DNA of 23,115 nucleotides from a virus, in the IMG/VR virus record IMGVR_UViG_3300039159_000349, positions 1 through 23,115 of that record, one strand, 5' to 3'. Of this stretch, positions 402-17,615 are shown piece by piece. A model generated the notes under the pieces. That model saw nothing but the letters and a program-made list of their open reading frames with translations. It searched no databases and was not told where the DNA came from. Position 1 is the first letter of the stretch. Each line of letters opens with the position of its first letter. The translations under genes were made by a program, and so were the position numbers.

Positions 402-2444
402 TCAGCGAGCCTCCAATTCTTTGACGCGGGCTGTCAACTCTTTGATCGCCTCGATCATCAACCCCATCATGTTTCCGTAGGCTACCGACAGCGTTTCGCC
501 GTCATCCATCACCGCTTCGGGCAACACCTTTTGCAGCTCCTGCGCGATCACACCCGTTTGGCGTTCGCCGGTGTCGATCCGGGTGTAGGTGTAGCCGTTG
601 AGTTGATTGACCTTCGCCAGCGCGTCGGTAATCTTGGTGATATCGGTCTTCAGGCGGATGTCTGAGAAGGCAGTGACGTTGCCGCTGGCGGTGAGATTGC
701 TGGACGTGTCGATCGACAAATAAATCGTGTTTGGGATGCCGTTTCCAGAGGTAGAGGCAAGCCGGGTTGAGCCTGCCTGGACATACCAAGCAGATGCGAT
801 CGTGCCAGGTAGGTGCATCTCGACCATCGGCGTGGTCGCGTTGCTGATGCTCAGCCGGTTGCTGGTGAGGTTCACCACATCGGAAAACGTCTTAACGCCC
901 CCGATGGTCTGAGTGCCCGTCGTGTAGACGCCATTTGTCACGGTGGCCGCGTTGCCGGTGGTGCTCTGGTTCCACGTGGGCACGCCGCCGGTGAGCCCGC
1001 TGTAGGCCATGTTGGTGGCGGTCGCAGCATTTCCAGTGATGCTTGCTACAATCGGACTAGAGAACGTCTTTATTCCTGCGATCGTCTGATCACCAGTCGT
1101 GTATACACCATTAGTAACAGTAGCAGCATTGCCGGTGGTGTTATTGGCCAGAGTACCTACTACGTTGGCAGCAGTCAGATTGGTAAGCAAGGCCGCATCG
1201 TTAGATACCACATAGGTATCGGCCGATGTTTTCCGAAGAATACCGAGTGTTCCACCCGTCATTGCCGCGGCCAGGTTAGTAAGAGCCGGGCCCACCGTAG
1301 TATCGATCGTGGTGTTGGTGGTCGAGTTTGCCGAGTAGGCGCCACTCATAGAGATACCAAATGTGGTGTTGGTGGCGCCGGCGACCGGAGCAGGCACAGT
1401 TAGGGCTGCATCATTGATTGTGGTCGTATCAACTGTGAAGGTATCAGTACCGGTTTTCCTCAGGAAACCAGAAGTCGCACCACTCATGATGGTGGCTAGA
1501 CCGGAGATTGCAGGGCCCACCACGACATTCACAGTTACGTTGCTATTCGAGTTTGCCGAGTAGGCACCCGAGAAGTTTGTTACAACCGAGGTTCCTGTGG
1601 CGCCAGCCGTGGTCACAGCAGCGCCCAGCGTACCGTTATTTGCGGTGGGGATGAAAACTTCGTTCCAAACAGGGGCGGCCGCCCCACCACCGGACTGCAG
1701 GAACTGGCCCGCGTTGCCGTTGGGGAGTCGAGTTGTTACACCAGCCGCGCTCTGATACAGGATCTGCCCACCCGCGCCGCCAGTCATATTTGTAGCCGAT
1801 GCTGCAGTGATGTTCCACGAGCCCGACGCGCCGGTGCCGGTTAGAGTCGGCGCGTAGATTCCAAAGTTACTCGAGTCGATCATCTGCTTCCAGGAACCGA
1901 ATGCCGTCAATGCACTGCCCGAGCCGCGAAGCCAGAGATTGTTGTTGTCGGTGAAGCCTAGCTGCCGAGTTCCACCGCCGGTCGCGTCCGAGAATTGCTG
2001 GAAGGAAAGAACTCCGTGCAGTGTGCCGCCGTCATTCAACCCGTCCGTGGTGTTGGACTTCAAGTCTGCCCGAATCCCAACGCCAGCGCCTGGTGTGTTA
2101 TCAACCGCTCTGGTATCACGGGAAGTAAGAATCAGAGTAGAGCCAGAGGTAACAGCCGCGGAAACACTCTTTGCCGAGTCAGCAGTGTTATCCGCATTGC
2201 CCAGGCCCACCATAGATTTTGTGATACCCACAACCGTGCCCGTGAAAGTTGGGCTAGCAGTGTTCGCCTTGGTACCGACAGTCGTGGTAAGATTGCCCAG
2301 GTTCGTGACGGTAGTTTCTAGACTATCGTTGATAGATCTAAAGTTACCGTCAATTTCTGGGTTCGTTAGAGGTGCATTATTAGCAGTCGTGGCGGTCGGA
2401 GCCACGGGAGTAGTGGTGTTGCCTCTAAATTTTACAAATGCCAT
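402..2444 (-). CDS. tail fibre protein with C-terminal S74 intramolecular chaperone domain
   Basis: This 680-residue protein has three parts. The N-terminus (NNAPLTNPEIDGNFRSIN) is the usual start of fibre proteins that attach to a baseplate. The middle, about residues 100-560, is a Gly/Thr/Asn/Ala-rich shaft containing two diverged copies of a module of about 60 residues (SGAYSAN...VGPA...LRKT) and two copies of NAATVTNGVYTTG..TI.G.KTF. The last 87 residues, from about 594, are a Peptidase_S74-type chaperone: SDIRLKTDI carries the expected Ser-Lys pair (S594, K599), followed by TGVIAQELQKVLPEAV and a final helix. In this family the domain drives trimerisation and usually cuts itself off. AGGGAAA lies just before the ATG, which follows the upstream gene by 22 bases. 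GC content varies in patches, highest around 402-1020 and 1660-2060. It is the likely host-recognition fibre; the receptor is unknown. Confidence 0.9.
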   Translation of the reverse strand: MAFVKFRGNTTTPVAPTATTANNAPLTNPEIDGNFRSINDSLETTVTNLGNLTTTVGTKANTASPTFTGTVVGITKSMVGLGNADNTADSAKSVSAAVTSGSTLILTSRDTRAVDNTPGAGVGIRADLKSNTTDGLNDGGTLHGVLSFQQFSDATGGGTRQLGFTDNNNLWLRGSGSALTAFGSWKQMIDSSNFGIYAPTLTGTGASGSWNITAASATNMTGGAGGQILYQSAAGVTTRLPNGNAGQFLQSGGGAAAPVWNEVFIPTANNGTLGAAVTTAGATGTSVVTNFSGAYSANSNSNVTVNVVVGPAISGLATIMSGATSGFLRKTGTDTFTVDTTTINDAALTVPAPVAGATNTTFGISMSGAYSANSTTNTTIDTTVGPALTNLAAAMTGGTLGILRKTSADTYVVSNDAALLTNLTAANVVGTLANNTTGNAATVTNGVYTTGDQTIAGIKTFSSPIVASITGNAATATNMAYSGLTGGVPTWNQSTTGNAATVTNGVYTTGTQTIGGVKTFSDVVNLTSNRLSISNATTPMVEMHLPGTIASAWYVQAGSTRLASTSGNGIPNTIYLSIDTSSNLTASGNVTAFSDIRLKTDITKITDALAKVNQLNGYTYTRIDTGERQTGVIAQELQKVLPEAVMDDGETLSVAYGNMMGLMIEAIKELTARVKELEAR

Positions 2445-2929: not shown

Positions 2930-4594
2930 TTACCAGTTTCTGGTGATTGTTGTTGAGCCTGTTGCATATGCATCCTCTATCAAGATGCCAGCAAAATATG
3001 ATGGATCTGATATTCCATAATCTTGACCTGTGATAAGAATCAACTGCCCTGTATCAGAACTATTTATATTGTCATTTATAGTTTTTGCTGCAGCAAAAAC
3101 TGTGGTCTCGGTCGGTATGGCAATCTCTGATTTTGCCAATGTGCTCTGATGTGCCCACGTATCCACACCACTTGATAGATCGGATTTTGCCAATGTGCTC
3201 TGATGTGTCCACGTATCCACACCACTTGATAGATCGGATTTTGGCAGGGTAGTATTATGCGACCATGTATCGGGGGCAAGTAAAATCTCCGGTTTATTCA
3301 GAAGCGTATTATGCACCCATGTATCCGAGGAATTTACTCGCTCTTGGAAAAGTAGCAAGAATTCACGTACTGCATCTCTCAGTGTCGGGAATATCTGGAA
3401 CTTGTTCTGCAAGTCATATTGACCCCAGAGTGCCATACCGTCTGGGTGCAGTAGCGTCATAACCGCATTTTTATATGAGGCCAGCTGTTCGTCCAACCGA
3501 AGCACATACGAGCCAGTCTGGTAATAGTTGCCGTCCTGAAGCTTGATATCATCCGATAGAAAACCATTTGTGGCAGAATAGAACCCGCGGAATCGCATCA
3601 ACGGGCCAACATCAATCCGCACGAATGCATCACCAATCTGGTAACCAGGATTATAGCCCAGATTCGTGAAATCACCCGGTGTATTAGAAGTGAAGTAGGC
3701 CTCTCGGAGTTGAGGTCGTATTGCCGCATACTTGGGGACATTGATACCGTTGCCCAGTGCGATAATGTCGAACTTTGAGATACGGCTTTGGTCTGCCGGA
3801 TCCATTGCTGTAATCCGGATGATACTATTCTTTGCCTCAGGGCCTGCGCCCGGAATAATAAATGCGACGCCGGCAAAGAAACCTTGTTTATTATTCAGAG
3901 TTAGAATAGCCTGCCCCGGGCCACCATTGATAACTTCTCCCCCGGATACAGTGTTGATAACAACACCCGGGATGGTGATCCCGCCCGAAGTAGTAAAGGA
4001 GAAGATATCACCGGTGTCGATCGTGGCTTTGTATGAACGATCAAGGAAGATATCGTACACCGTGTTGGTGATTTTCTTCACGTTGGTCGAGAGGAAACTA
4101 GAGCCCATATCATCCCTATCCTTCTTGAGAATGAATCTGTTACCCTGGATTACAGCTACCTCTAGCAAATCAGTCACGGGCCCGGAAACTTTGACTCGAA
4201 TGGAAACTTCTTGAATCCATCTGCCATCCGAGGCCCTGAGAATACTATTGCCCGGGTAGATTAAATCGACCGACTTTCCAAACATGGCCCGCATCAGGAA
4301 CTTAAACGAGTCCTCGGAACCACGGGAGAGATAGAACTGCTTTGCAACCTTCAGAAATTCCTCATCAGATACTTGGCCAAAGCTCGGCACATTCTTCGCG
4401 AGTTCTGATTTTAGCTCATCAATAAAACGATTCAATGATGCATCAATATTCCGGAGGTTATCCACTCTCCCGCTCTCGGTTGATTCCAAGTACTGATAGT
4501 ACTTCTCCATGAACGTGATGAGCATTGGAAACTCTTCACGATACATCTCGGGGAACTGCCCCGCGAGGAATAGATCAAGTGTTGGATTTTCCAT
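2930..4594 (-). CDS. large baseplate/tail structural protein with C-terminal Trp repeats
   Basis: This 554-residue protein begins with MENPTLDLFLAGQFPEMY and has a helical N-terminal part (FPMLITFMEKYYQYLES, then FLKVAKQFYLSRGSEDSFKF) leading to YPGNSILRASDGRWIQE. That N-terminal architecture is widespread in baseplate-cluster proteins of T4-superfamily phages far from T4, often annotated as wedge or tail-fibre-anchoring proteins. I cannot match it to T4 gp7, gp8 or gp10. The middle is beta-rich with many Gly and Ile. From about residue 423 there are four tandem copies of an 18-residue unit whose consensus is DTWxHxxTLxKSDLSSGV; the best two copies are nearly identical at DNA level. The start overlaps the gp6 stop (TAATG). 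Position between gp6 and the fibre genes suggests it joins wedges to fibres; that role is inference. Confidence 0.75.
   Translation of the reverse strand: MENPTLDLFLAGQFPEMYREEFPMLITFMEKYYQYLESTESGRVDNLRNIDASLNRFIDELKSELAKNVPSFGQVSDEEFLKVAKQFYLSRGSEDSFKFLMRAMFGKSVDLIYPGNSILRASDGRWIQEVSIRVKVSGPVTDLLEVAVIQGNRFILKKDRDDMGSSFLSTNVKKITNTVYDIFLDRSYKATIDTGDIFSFTTSGGITIPGVVINTVSGGEVINGGPGQAILTLNNKQGFFAGVAFIIPGAGPEAKNSIIRITAMDPADQSRISKFDIIALGNGINVPKYAAIRPQLREAYFTSNTPGDFTNLGYNPGYQIGDAFVRIDVGPLMRFRGFYSATNGFLSDDIKLQDGNYYQTGSYVLRLDEQLASYKNAVMTLLHPDGMALWGQYDLQNKFQIFPTLRDAVREFLLLFQERVNSSDTWVHNTLLNKPEILLAPDTWSHNTTLPKSDLSSGVDTWTHQSTLAKSDLSSGVDTWAHQSTLAKSEIAIPTETTVFAAAKTINDNINSSDTGQLILITGQDYGISDPSYFAGILIEDAYATGSTTITRNW
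3061..3068 (-). promoter_or_regulatory. candidate T4-type late promoter inside the large baseplate gene
   Basis: The minus strand reads TATAAATA exactly, the T4 late -10 consensus, with a near match (CTATAAATG) 14 bases upstream. It lies in the 3' end of the large baseplate gene, about 140 bases before the start of the small fibre-like gene at 2919, and could add late transcription for the fibre and adhesin genes. It overlaps coding sequence, so chance occurrence is possible. Confidence 0.4.
3129..3236. repeat. two near-identical tandem 54-bp repeats, in frame
   Basis: Copies at 3129-3182 and 3183-3236 differ at one position that I can see (gtgcccacg versus gtgtccacg). Because 54 is a multiple of 3, each copy adds 18 residues (about DTWTHQSTLAKSDLSSGV) to the large baseplate protein. 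Two further copies, at about 3075-3128 and 3237-3310, match at protein level but have diverged in DNA, so the inner pair looks like a recent duplication. Confidence 0.9.
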
Positions 4595-6807: not shown

Positions 6808-9261
6808 TTATCTCAACAAAACAAAAGAAGATCTGTTATATGTGGAGTGGTTCTTGATCGTCATGGTCTGCATCTTGTTGCCCGTGGATTTGTACGCAAT
6901 ATGAATCCACATGGAGTTGTTAGTATACTCTAGCAAAATCTGATTGTATGCGGGCAGCATCTTCTGGATCGCCACACACGCATCAAAGGTCTGCTTAGAA
7001 TTGAATCCAGTGAATACTAGATCGGCCGCGCAACCAGTCATGTGATCGGATGTTTTGGAACCACCAATCTTGGTATTGTACGCCTCCGACCGCCAAGAGT
7101 TGGTGATCACCATATTCGGATAGGCCCGTTTCACAGGATCTAGCACATGAATTACAAGCTGTTTCAGGTTACACACAATTTGCTGAGCACTCAATCCCAC
7201 ATTATTACCAGAGGGTATAGATCTTCCGTTGCCCGTAAGTATATCACCCAGGGTAAAGTTATCCGTGAGTTTATACGCATAGGTGAATTTTGTTTCACTC
7301 ATGATAGCATCACAGTTGGCACTCGCGATCGGCACAGGAACTTTATTTTCTGGCACTTTTGTCTCCTCCTCAACTTTTTCTGTTTTCACCTCATCCGGAT
7401 TGATATTACCCCGGGCAATCTGAATCGCTCGAAATTCAGTATTATCCCCCTCCTCGGGTGTTTCATAGGAATAATCAACGAAGTCGTTTCGGTTAGGGGT
7501 GCTCAGGGGGGCGAACGAAGCCTGACCCTGTGCGGATCCTGATGCCTTCTTAACTCCCCCACCCATACCCGAGTTGAAGTGAACATTCGCGCCATCCAGG
7601 GAAATATCTCCACCCGAAGCAAGCCGGATATTGCCACCAGCCCCGATACCAACATCACCACCGACCTTCACGTCCAGATTTCCCAGTGTTTCCAGTGTAG
7701 TATTGTTCTCGACCCGTATATTTGCATCGCCCTCCACAGTAATATTGCAAGAACCCCGTATCAAGATATGCCCGTTTCGCTCTATGATCGTGAAGGAATC
7801 ACCCACGATCCGATGCACCTCGGTGCCGTTCACATCAATTTCGGTATAGGTGCCCGCCTTGTGATATGAGTGAACCCGCTCATTTCCCGGAGTATCATCA
7901 TACTCCTGCACGTGGCCCGAGGGTGATGAATACACAGTGTTGTAAGGATACTGGGCGTTGTATGGGATTCGCGGTTGGTTCCAGTTGGATCCGTTGGCAC
8001 ATGGAACACCGGTAACTCGGGCCGCTTCCTTTAGAACCACGATAGTTCCATCTAGCTTTTCATGCCGGGCCAAGCGGTGGGTGTCGGGTTCGTCCAGGAA
8101 CTTAGGGTAGATCTTATTGGGATCAGAGAATCCTGGTTCCGACAGCTGTGTTGGATTCGCGCCCACGCTGGTCGTAACACCCGGGGCCCCGACCGGAGCC
8201 AAAACCACAGGATTCTTTGTTGCATCGGGCGGGGTCTCGAGAACCGCGGCCCTATCGCCCAATACTTTCTCCACGGATCCATCGGCATTTGGAATTCCAT
8301 CTTTCAGGAATAGATTCTTTTCTTTGTTCCTCCGACTCGTCAAAGTACCGTTGTTGTTCTTTGTCGTTGGAATCAGCGCGGCCGCGGCTGCATACTTACC
8401 CGCATTCAACGCCGTGAGTACCTCGGTTTTCGAGAAACCACCTGCGCCCATATTGTAGATCATTGAAACACAGGCGTCAAACATCGACTGGGTGACTGGT
8501 ACTTTGATCAATCTTCGGGCCGACTTCTCGAATGCGGGTTGCCCGGGTTGATCCTCTCTCAGGGATTTTAACTTTAATTCATCCGCGTCGGCCTTGCTGA
8601 TCACGGTTTCCGAATTTACTCGACTGCCGTCGGGCATAAATTGATTGCCCCATCCAATAGCAAGATTGCCGTTATCTGGGTACGGGTAGAGCAGTGTGCT
8701 ATCCGGTGTGCTATCATTCCCAATTCTTACCCGACCCTTCACCAGCGAGGCCAGACCCTCAAGGCTTTTGAGAAACTTGAAACCCTCCTCGGAAGTCGTC
8801 ATTGCCGACGGTTTCTTCACCACCAAAGTCGAGGCGTCATCTTCAGGCTCGGCGACCAATTCTTTCTCGACACCGGTACTTCCGGATTTAATCGGTGCCC
8901 CAGAACTATCCTTCCAGGCAGTCCCATCCGAGGAAACTACGGCCGAAGTGGTTCCTGGATTAGAAACTACTTTATCAATACTAGGGATACCCGGCAAGGT
9001 ACCAATAACAATCGGTGACTGCTGATCCTCATCCCGATACACGAGCATGACCCAGGTACCCTCAAGAATACCCGTGGGCGAGAAGCCAACTCCCGAGTTG
9101 GCCGCAGAGCTAGTGGGCTGCATCACAAGAGCCCAGGGCAGATCTGCCGTGGGCAGCTCTTGTTTATTTTCCGTGTGGATTCCAGAGATTCTTACGCGTA
9201 CCCGCCCCAACTTCAGGGGATCATTGATACGGTCCTCGACCACTCCATAGTAGATATTCAT
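6808..9261 (-). CDS. gp5: gp5-type cell-puncturing spike with lysozyme and M15-type peptidase domains
   Basis: At 817 residues this is far longer than T4 gp5 (575). Domains in order: OB-fold (about 1-95, with LGRVRVRISGIH and WVMLVYRDEDQQSPIVIGTL); GH24 T4-lysozyme-like domain (about 155-320, with SLEG E168, D196, NLAIGWGN and MIYNMGAGGF); linker; triple beta-helix (about 485-565, with short valine/glycine repeats); acidic linker; and a C-terminal peptidase (about 655-790). The last part has the zinc-site pattern SxHxxGxAxD at S738-D747 (H740, D747) plus WIH at H787, as in Peptidase_M15_3. It would pierce the outer membrane and cut glycan strands and possibly peptide crosslinks. The lysozyme has Ala (A201) where T4 lysozyme has catalytic Thr26, and Asn where it has His31, and a long insert after E168. 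The start overlaps the upstream... next-gene layout is ATGA with the gp27 stop. Domain calls are strong; activity is untested. Confidence 0.93.
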   Translation of the reverse strand: MNIYYGVVEDRINDPLKLGRVRVRISGIHTENKQELPTADLPWALVMQPTSSAANSGVGFSPTGILEGTWVMLVYRDEDQQSPIVIGTLPGIPSIDKVVSNPGTTSAVVSSDGTAWKDSSGAPIKSGSTGVEKELVAEPEDDASTLVVKKPSAMTTSEEGFKFLKSLEGLASLVKGRVRIGNDSTPDSTLLYPYPDNGNLAIGWGNQFMPDGSRVNSETVISKADADELKLKSLREDQPGQPAFEKSARRLIKVPVTQSMFDACVSMIYNMGAGGFSKTEVLTALNAGKYAAAAALIPTTKNNNGTLTSRRNKEKNLFLKDGIPNADGSVEKVLGDRAAVLETPPDATKNPVVLAPVGAPGVTTSVGANPTQLSEPGFSDPNKIYPKFLDEPDTHRLARHEKLDGTIVVLKEAARVTGVPCANGSNWNQPRIPYNAQYPYNTVYSSPSGHVQEYDDTPGNERVHSYHKAGTYTEIDVNGTEVHRIVGDSFTIIERNGHILIRGSCNITVEGDANIRVENNTTLETLGNLDVKVGGDVGIGAGGNIRLASGGDISLDGANVHFNSGMGGGVKKASGSAQGQASFAPLSTPNRNDFVDYSYETPEEGDNTEFRAIQIARGNINPDEVKTEKVEEETKVPENKVPVPIASANCDAIMSETKFTYAYKLTDNFTLGDILTGNGRSIPSGNNVGLSAQQIVCNLKQLVIHVLDPVKRAYPNMVITNSWRSEAYNTKIGGSKTSDHMTGCAADLVFTGFNSKQTFDACVAIQKMLPAYNQILLEYTNNSMWIHIAYKSTGNKMQTMTIKNHSTYNRSSFVLLR

Positions 9262-15747: not shown

Positions 15748-17310
15748 ATGAACGAGGCAGACAAAATCAAGGCCCAGAAGGATAAGGAACTTCGGAACTC
15801 GCAAGAGCTCACGGTGGCTATCAAGAAACTCTCCGAACAGTTCATCAAGGCCGGGGAGACCGTTAAGAAGCAGACCAATGCACCCATGTCGGCCGGCGGA
15901 TCGCTGAAGGAAGGCCTCAAGAATCATTATGCACCCGTGATGGCCGCGACCAAGCAACTATCCTCTCCCGCGGGTATGTTGGATATGCTCTCAGCCAAGA
16001 CCGGCGGTGGATTGCTTAGTACCGTCCTGGGTACTGCCTCATCCGCGCTGAAGGAACGGGCCGAACAGAGACAGAAAAAGACCCAGTGGGCCGCTGATTT
16101 TCTTACTGGTACCGATAGAGGTCGGGAGCTCATCCAGAAACACGGTCTAGATAAGGCCTCTTCAATCGCGGGCAAGTACTACGATACCAAAACCAAGCTC
16201 GAGAGTGAAATCAACGAGCAAGAGGAACGCCGTAATTCACTGAAGAAATCCGGTATAAAGGGCGCCGATCTGGCCTCGGATGAACTTGATGCACTGGCGA
16301 AAAAGAAACGGCAACTCTCCTATGTGATGGGCGAGCGACAAAGTATCGCGAAGAAGAAGGAAGCCGGGCCAAGGAAGGAGACCATCCGAAAGGAAGAGCC
16401 TCTAATTGATGCTCTGTTCAAATCCCAAGAGGCCGCGATCCGGGAGCAATACCCCGAGGAATCCAAGAACCGAGAGTTCATGGCCGAGGTAAAGAACTCC
16501 ATGCAGGAGGAACTACTCGAGCTCAGCGAGGAGCAGCTTGCTCAACTAAAGATTCTTGTGAAGAATTCCGTGGCCTCCGAGGAGGACAAGTATGAGGAAC
16601 AAAAGAATCAGAAGATAGAGAAGGACGGTGAGAAGGTACTACCAAAGAAGGAAGCCAAGGGCGGTCTGATGGATACCCTGATGGATAAGATTCCTGGCAT
16701 GGATATGCTCAAGAAGGCGGGCCCAGCCCTAATGAGGATGCTGCCATTCGCGGGTCAGGCATTGGGCGTTGGCGCCGCGGGCTATGCTGGTTATAAGGCC
16801 GGGGGCTTGTTGAATGATTACGTCCTAAACCCTGCTGCCGAGGCGATCACCGGAACCAAGGGTGCTACCGTGGGCACTGCCCTCTATGATGGGGTGGATA
16901 AGCTCAAGGGCATGTTTGGCATGGAGACCGATGCCCAGAAAATCAAGAGAGCCGATGATGAGGCACTGGTGAATAATGGTAAAAAGAAACTGGCAGAGGG
17001 TAAGCCCGTGAGTGAATCAGTGGCTACGGCAATGAGAGCCGCGGGTATCTCTGTGCCTGCCTCCAGTGTGATTGTGCCGGGCAAGACTCCGGTACCTTCT
17101 GCAGCAAAATCCACTCAGGATATGGCAGTCAAGGAAGAGGTATTGGATCAAGCAAAGAAAGAGGCCGCGATTCCTGGAACAGTGGCCCAGAAGGGTAGTA
17201 CCAATATCAACACCGTGAATACATCCAGCACCACTGTGATGAATGCCCGACCAGATATCAGATCTCCCGAGCCCACCTTCAATAGATTGCTGGGTAGAAA
17301 CTTCCGTTAA
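15748..17310 (+). CDS. gp29: gp29-type tape measure / tail length determinator
   Basis: A 520-residue protein. Residues about 1-45 and 140-310 are charged and predicted coiled coil by eye, with many Lys and Glu. Next is a Gly/Ala-rich hydrophobic stretch (LMRMLPFAGQALGVGAAGYA, about 330-350) of the kind that inserts into membranes in tape measures. The C-terminus has NINTVNTSSTTVM and FNRLLGRNFR. T4 gp29 has 590 residues. At about 0.15 nm per residue, 520 residues would span roughly 78 nm, so the tail may be slightly shorter than in T4; this figure is an estimate from the helical rise. AAGGG lies before the ATG, three bases after the previous stop. The stop codon overlaps that of the convergent PAAR gene. 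Identification rests on position, coiled coil and hydrophobic stretch. Confidence 0.75.
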   Translation: MNEADKIKAQKDKELRNSQELTVAIKKLSEQFIKAGETVKKQTNAPMSAGGSLKEGLKNHYAPVMAATKQLSSPAGMLDMLSAKTGGGLLSTVLGTASSALKERAEQRQKKTQWAADFLTGTDRGRELIQKHGLDKASSIAGKYYDTKTKLESEINEQEERRNSLKKSGIKGADLASDELDALAKKKRQLSYVMGERQSIAKKKEAGPRKETIRKEEPLIDALFKSQEAAIREQYPEESKNREFMAEVKNSMQEELLELSEEQLAQLKILVKNSVASEEDKYEEQKNQKIEKDGEKVLPKKEAKGGLMDTLMDKIPGMDMLKKAGPALMRMLPFAGQALGVGAAGYAGYKAGGLLNDYVLNPAAEAITGTKGATVGTALYDGVDKLKGMFGMETDAQKIKRADDEALVNNGKKKLAEGKPVSESVATAMRAAGISVPASSVIVPGKTPVPSAAKSTQDMAVKEEVLDQAKKEAAIPGTVAQKGSTNINTVNTSSTTVMNARPDIRSPEPTFNRLLGRNFR

Positions 17311-17615
17311 CCCGCGAAGACGTTGGAAGATCCTCGGGTGATGGTGTTGTCGTTGTACTTGTCACCGATTCTTCCCACCCCATCACCGCTGATGAATACT
17401 CTGCTGCTATGCGTGGATAGCGTGGAAGTATCTGTGCTGCAGCCCCTCTTTGGATGGGGCGCAATCATATCACCCCGGGCCACGATAAGGATCCCGTTGG
17501 CATAGACGTTCACGGTGTTCACCTCATCCACGGAGGTTTTCATGGGCGCGCCACAACGATAACCCAAACCATCGGGGCTCATGACTGAATCACCTTTTCT
17601 TGAAATTGCAGGCAT
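17307..17615 (-). CDS. PAAR-domain spike tip protein (gp5.4-like)
   Basis: A 102-residue protein with the PAAR pattern throughout: PAISRKGDSVMSPDG, VNVYANGILIVARGD, a central HPKRGC, STLSTHSSRVFISGDGVGRI in parts (SSRVFISGDGVGRIGD) and the ending NTITRGSSNVFAG. PAAR proteins form a metal-bound sharpened cone at the tip of the gp5 beta-helix; here one His and two Cys (CGAP, HPKRGC) could bind the metal, as in gp5.4. It would cap the spike encoded at 6808-9261, about 8 kb away, separated by the inverted island. The start overlaps the upstream gene's stop (TAATG). Confidence 0.92.
   Translation of the reverse strand: MPAISRKGDSVMSPDGLGYRCGAPMKTSVDEVNTVNVYANGILIVARGDMIAPHPKRGCSTDTSTLSTHSSRVFISGDGVGRIGDKYNDNTITRGSSNVFAG

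Follow-up and report, generated by a model that had tools for sequence, protein, structure and literature searches.

A central spike gene among baseplate genes

The window, i.e. the whole 23,115-nucleotide stretch of viral DNA that was analysed, carries a gp5-type central spike gene of 817 aa as one unbroken ORF on the minus strand (6808-9261). Matches in Pfam, PHROG and the PDB gave the domain order as an N-terminal OB domain, a GH24 lysozyme domain, a needle and a C-terminal M15 peptidase domain. Two of these, the lysozyme and the peptidase, had been proposed in this order by an earlier, sequence-only reading, and both assignments were borne out by Pfam matches above the curated cut-offs. 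The gene sits between homologues of gp53 and a tail protein and homologues of gp25 and gp6, as judged from Pfam and PHROG, and its neighbours comprise a gp48-type tube cap, gp53, a phrog_350 tail protein, gp25 and gp6. Together with the gp5-type domains, these baseplate neighbours identify the protein as the central spike of a T4-like contractile phage. For the gp6 homologue, the nearest isolates were the Methylophilales phages Melnitz, followed by Pelagibacter phages, at 34-38% identity.

Several other genes of the window drew our attention. The tail-fibre protein at 402-2444 (minus) ends in a C-terminal Peptidase_S74 intramolecular chaperone (2.5e-18) and is matched by many long-tail-fibre PHROGs. 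Within the baseplate-wedge-like protein at 2930-4594 (minus), 54-base tandem repeats in 2.1 to 2.6 copies (3129-3271) encode DTWxHxSTLAKSDLSSGV repeats. A 520-aa protein at 15748-17310 (plus), with baseplate-hub and PAAR genes on either side, had no PHROG match.

In the spike itself, the OB domain occupies residues 1-95 (8977-9261, minus) and is matched by Gp5_OB (8.2e-23, 81.7 bits vs a cut-off of 25) and by T4 gp5 chains. The needle, a gp5-type triple beta-helix at residues ~425-575 (7537-7989, minus), was recognised through T4 gp5, solved gp5 needle fragments (matching residues 478-576), phrog_430 and our own profile; the Pfam match to Gp5_trimer_C at residues 455-544 was weak, with 18.7 bits under the cut-off of 30.9. 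The PHROG phrog_430, annotated as 'baseplate hub subunit and tail lysozyme', covers the needle and the M15 domain together (residues 418-810, 1.4e-92). These two are joined by a linker at residues ~576-649 (7315-7536, minus) that contains a PNR...YETPEEGD segment common to most of the GH24- and M15-bearing clade. The linker motif was considered as a general docking site for PAAR proteins and was rejected, as YETPEE-like segments are present in only part of the spike family.

The sequence-only reading placed the peptidase near where a PAAR tip would attach. A PAAR-type gene was indeed found on the same contig: it encodes a protein of 102 aa (17307-17615, minus), a candidate needle cap matched by phrog_281 (1.9e-15), with the Pfam PAAR profile scoring 21.8 bits, under its cut-off of 27. 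The full-length model of the spike monomer was poor (mean pLDDT 53.8) and was left out of the reasoning on domain placement.

The peptidase and lysozyme domains

The C-terminal domain spans residues ~650-812 (6826-7314, minus) and is matched by Peptidase_M15_3 at residues 695-760 (4.2e-9, 37.0 bits vs a cut-off of 23.2). Its SxHxxGxAxD motif at S738-D747 (7021-7050, minus) holds the predicted zinc ligands H740 and D747, and the WIH motif at residues 785-787 (6901-6909, minus) would supply the third, H787. On the translation, S738, H740, D747, W785 and H787 lie exactly at the positions first given for them. To assess conservation, we aligned 40 non-redundant M15 domains including that of the window, to which the others show ~22-39% identity. 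H740, D747, H787 and A745 were invariant (40/40), as was R724 (7090-7092, minus), an Arg upstream of HxxGxAxD, and E778 and W785 were each retained in 39/40. Judged from this alignment, the conservation of catalytic residues is far beyond chance.

The model of the M15 domain (pLDDT 85.9, pTM 0.83) had a single PDB match at an E-value below 0.001, the Streptomyces albus zinc DD-peptidase 1LBU (E 9e-5, TM 0.56 by query, 23% identity), which is the best fold match but a stand-alone enzyme rather than part of a phage spike. The next matches were hedgehog N-domains, which have the same fold. The first reading would have been given up for want of both an M15 match and a fold with a metal site; what we found was a profile match above cut-off and a zinc peptidase as closest fold. 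When PDB sequences were searched with the M15 profile, matches were marginal only (hedgehog, 1LBU and 2VO9), while the fold search was clear. In a viral structure library, 53 models matched the domain at E<=0.001, among them other gp5-OB proteins.

In hedgehog, a Glu before the last zinc His is the putative base. E778 falls on this Glu in a sequence alignment with Sonic hedgehog, which supports E778 as the putative catalytic base of the spike M15 domain. From the conserved residues and the fold we infer that the domain binds metal and is active. Among the M15 enzymes are D-Ala carboxypeptidases, cross-link endopeptidases and L-Ala-D-Glu peptidases, and with several bond specificities in the family the sequence alone does not fix the bond that would be cut.

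Murein need not be the target. The VgrG2b protein of Pseudomonas aeruginosa, a type VI secretion effector with an immunity protein, carries a folded metallopeptidase past its spike beta-helix that is delivered to and works in the periplasm and that showed no peptidoglycan hydrolase activity (PMC6899460). By this precedent, the spike M15 domain may cut a periplasmic or other envelope protein, or it might merely bind murein without hydrolysing it. We consider this unlikely. VgrG2b is absent among the PDB matches listed for the M15 model, and the spike domain is related to the M15 domains of phage endolysins (phrog_894, 'endolysin', 1.4e-22). Mere binding, moreover, would not require the catalytic positions, yet these are all invariant.

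The GH24 domain, at residues 155-325 (8287-8799, minus), is matched by Phage_lysozyme at residues 192-314 (1.5e-18, 67.8 bits vs a cut-off of 22.3); NCBIfam gave sub-cutoff GH24 relatives only. As a yardstick we used the T4 lysozyme sequence with its catalytic residues Glu11, Asp20 and Thr26. Glu168 and Asp196 of the spike align with Glu11 and Asp20, whereas Ala201 stands in the place of Thr26, next to a deletion of one residue, and the Glu-Asp-Thr set is therefore incomplete. Between Glu168 and Asp196 lies an insert of ~18 residues.

A search with the GH24 domain revealed further spikes with the order OB, GH24, needle and M15 (L128, L129 with L130 and L133, L131, L132 and L134), as well as L135, which has the same GH24 build and is cut off before the M15 domain. 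The insert is common to L128, L129, L131, L132 and L134. The catalytic Thr is kept in seven relatives (L002, L128, L129, L131, L132, L134 and L135), and the window has the lowest GH24 score of the clade (67.8 bits vs 74.6-103.4, and 143.1 for L002). As far as these sequences tell, the combination of GH24 and M15 is the mark of a small clade, and it is in the window copy that the lysozyme site has changed. Since Thr is replaced here while seven relatives keep it, the domain is best described as a GH24 domain at the level of the fold, the activity of which is uncertain and which may be weak or dead. The proposal that both domains are catalytic thus fared unevenly, with conserved residues predicting activity for the M15 domain and the catalytic Thr missing from the window GH24 domain.

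This raises the possibility that the M15 domain is the sole working wall enzyme of the window spike, an inactive GH24 domain being kept as a structural spacer. The replaced Thr with its adjacent deletion and the low score fit such a loss; at the same time Glu168 and Asp196 are still there, the profile match is strong, and the case rests on a single metagenomic contig. We regard this as possible, though short of probable.

A widespread peptidase and an exchangeable slot

Next, we surveyed 35 non-redundant spike ORFs with OB domain and needle in one frame. The queries were the window protein and the M15 domain of a relative, so that the finding of an M15 domain past the needle in 26 of the 35 comes from a survey biased towards M15-bearing spikes. 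Isolated phages are among the bearers, namely Cr30, pf16 and BUCT-ZZ01.

The slot between OB domain and needle varied widely in the 26 spikes: 11 had 307-389 residues, two had 216-232 and 13 had 36-140, which is too small for a glycosidase. Long slots hold GH24 in the window and L002 and GH19 in L004, L016, L024, L025, L026 and L082 (below cut-off in L010), and that of L049 holds a VgrG3-like C-terminal domain. In Cr30 (L085) the slot, with 216 residues, is filled by Phage_lysozyme2, and L008 matches a phage tail-lysozyme PHROG only. The M15 tip is the lasting feature of the spike family, the glycosidase slot being exchangeable and dispensable, and our main new generalisation is that the peptidase keeps its place at the tip while its partner enzyme changes. 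That half of these spikes have no glycosidase-sized slot also lends some weight to the reduced, spacer-like role for the GH24 domain of the window. The sequence-only reading had envisaged glycan and peptide bonds being cut in succession; the domains for this are present in the window, but as a general rule it does not hold, since in 13 of 26 spikes a glycosidase would not fit into the slot.

The M15 domain is also found outside single-frame spikes. In viruses with a split spike gene it stays on the needle part (L045, L056, L063, Melnitz L083 and the Rhizobium phage L126), and in the Pseudomonas phages Milchi, Paride and Voja-6 and in Vibrio phage 1.244.A it sits on the PAAR protein instead of gp5. 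The occurrence of the same family on PAAR proteins is an independent pointer to the tip. A tree built from 45 M15 domains united the four PAAR forms in a supported clade and six stand-alone domains of the endolysin type in a second one, and the window grouped with L002 and L120 (92/94); 21 of the 42 inner branches of this tree were weak.

These observations bear on whether the M15 domain is present on the infecting spike at all. T4 gp5 is cleaved during maturation, and related M15 domains occur as stand-alone endolysins, so the domain could be removed in maturation or could be a lysis-time endolysin riding on the gp5 gene. The T4 cleavage, however, lies before the needle and not after it. The domain remains fused to the needle where the gene splits elsewhere, other phages have it on the PAAR tip protein instead, and the endolysin forms branch as their own clade. 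Absence from the infecting spike thus seems very unlikely to us.

A few records deserve separate mention. The PAAR-M15 fusions of Milchi, Vibrio phage 1.244.A, Paride and Voja-6 (L086, L087, L088 and L089) are annotated merely as PAAR or endolysin. The Paride gene lies among nucleotide-metabolism genes, and its product gave no match when used as query against viral contigs. In the slot of the Melnitz OB gene (L083:5935-6996) there is a weak match of the VanY type, which is related to M15, at a score of 22.4 bits that stays under the cut-off, and by sequence this phage may have two M15-kind peptidases. L065:2308-8316 encodes a split-spike protein of 2003 residues with the needle at ~1329-1453 and the M15 domain at 1830-1983, the first 1300 residues of which had no PHROG match.

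A predicted murein peptidase at the needle tip

The spike shares with T4 gp5 the N-terminal OB domain, a lysozyme between OB domain and needle, the triple beta-helix and a position beside gp53, gp25 and gp6 homologues. It differs in the linker and M15 domain added beyond the needle, in the replaced catalytic Thr and in the ~18-residue GH24 insert. The contrast with T4 gp5, for which the first reading had noted the lysozyme alone, is thus upheld by the M15 match. The arrangement of needle and M15 domain is the same in pf16, Cr30 and BUCT-ZZ01, as well as in phrog_430 and, as split genes, in Melnitz, whereas their slots differ from that of the window, being empty in pf16 and holding Phage_lysozyme2 in Cr30 and GH19 in BUCT-ZZ01.

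Two known systems are instructive. In the Anabaena phage A-1(L), the hub protein gp15 was experimentally shown to have peptidase and endoglucanase activity, and its domains lyse Anabaena cells (PMC10966104). Like the window spike, gp15 is a baseplate protein of a contractile phage that combines domains for cutting glycan with a peptidase at its C-terminus (PMC10966104), but these are borne on a hub barrel protein rather than on a gp5-type needle. It therefore sets a precedent for two activities on one contractile baseplate. Evolved VgrGs share with the window spike a catalytic-type domain C-terminal to the beta-helix; in the window, by contrast, the gene lies amid phage baseplate and head-tail genes instead of a type VI secretion locus, and the hub part is unfused, the adjoining tail proteins being separate genes. 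How a folded domain passes the outer membrane, a question raised by the first reading along with possible cleavage, is not special to this spike, since evolved VgrGs such as VgrG2b deliver folded metallopeptidases (PMC6899460), and there is no need to assume cleavage before entry.

In our best reading, the M15 domain would be a murein peptidase that is carried on the tip and delivered in the manner of the effectors of evolved VgrGs. We infer a trimer in which three M15 domains hang on ~75-residue linkers past the needle. When the sheath contracts, the needle, which presumably has the PAAR protein as its cap, would take them through the outer membrane, and once in the periplasm they would cut peptide bonds in the sacculus where it is punctured. 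The GH24 domains, in the T4 position, would cut glycan behind them if active. We give this reading, with an M15 zinc peptidase on a linker at the needle tip cutting murein at puncture, a probability of about 0.7.

In our literature search, which did not cover subscription papers, no paper describing a gp5 spike with an M15 domain was found. The architecture of OB domain, needle and M15 domain is already present, unnamed, in public data (phrog_430 and the gp5-OB models of the viral structure library), and the window adds the combination of GH24 with M15 and an apparent change in the lysozyme site.

The T4 tail lysozyme is the textbook model of how contractile phages cross murein. For many T4-like phages our analysis predicts attack on a different bond, at the tip, with the lysozyme being optional, and the records of these phages read just 'tail lysozyme' or 'hypothetical protein'. 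More tentatively, a conserved tip murein peptidase, on gp5 or PAAR, could be the main entry enzyme throughout this T4-like spike family, with the glycosidase swapped and often absent; in the window the lysozyme might then be degenerating, leaving the peptidase alone to open the wall. The claim on which enzyme matters for entry becomes testable, as the isolates pf16 and Cr30 have the peptidase without GH24.
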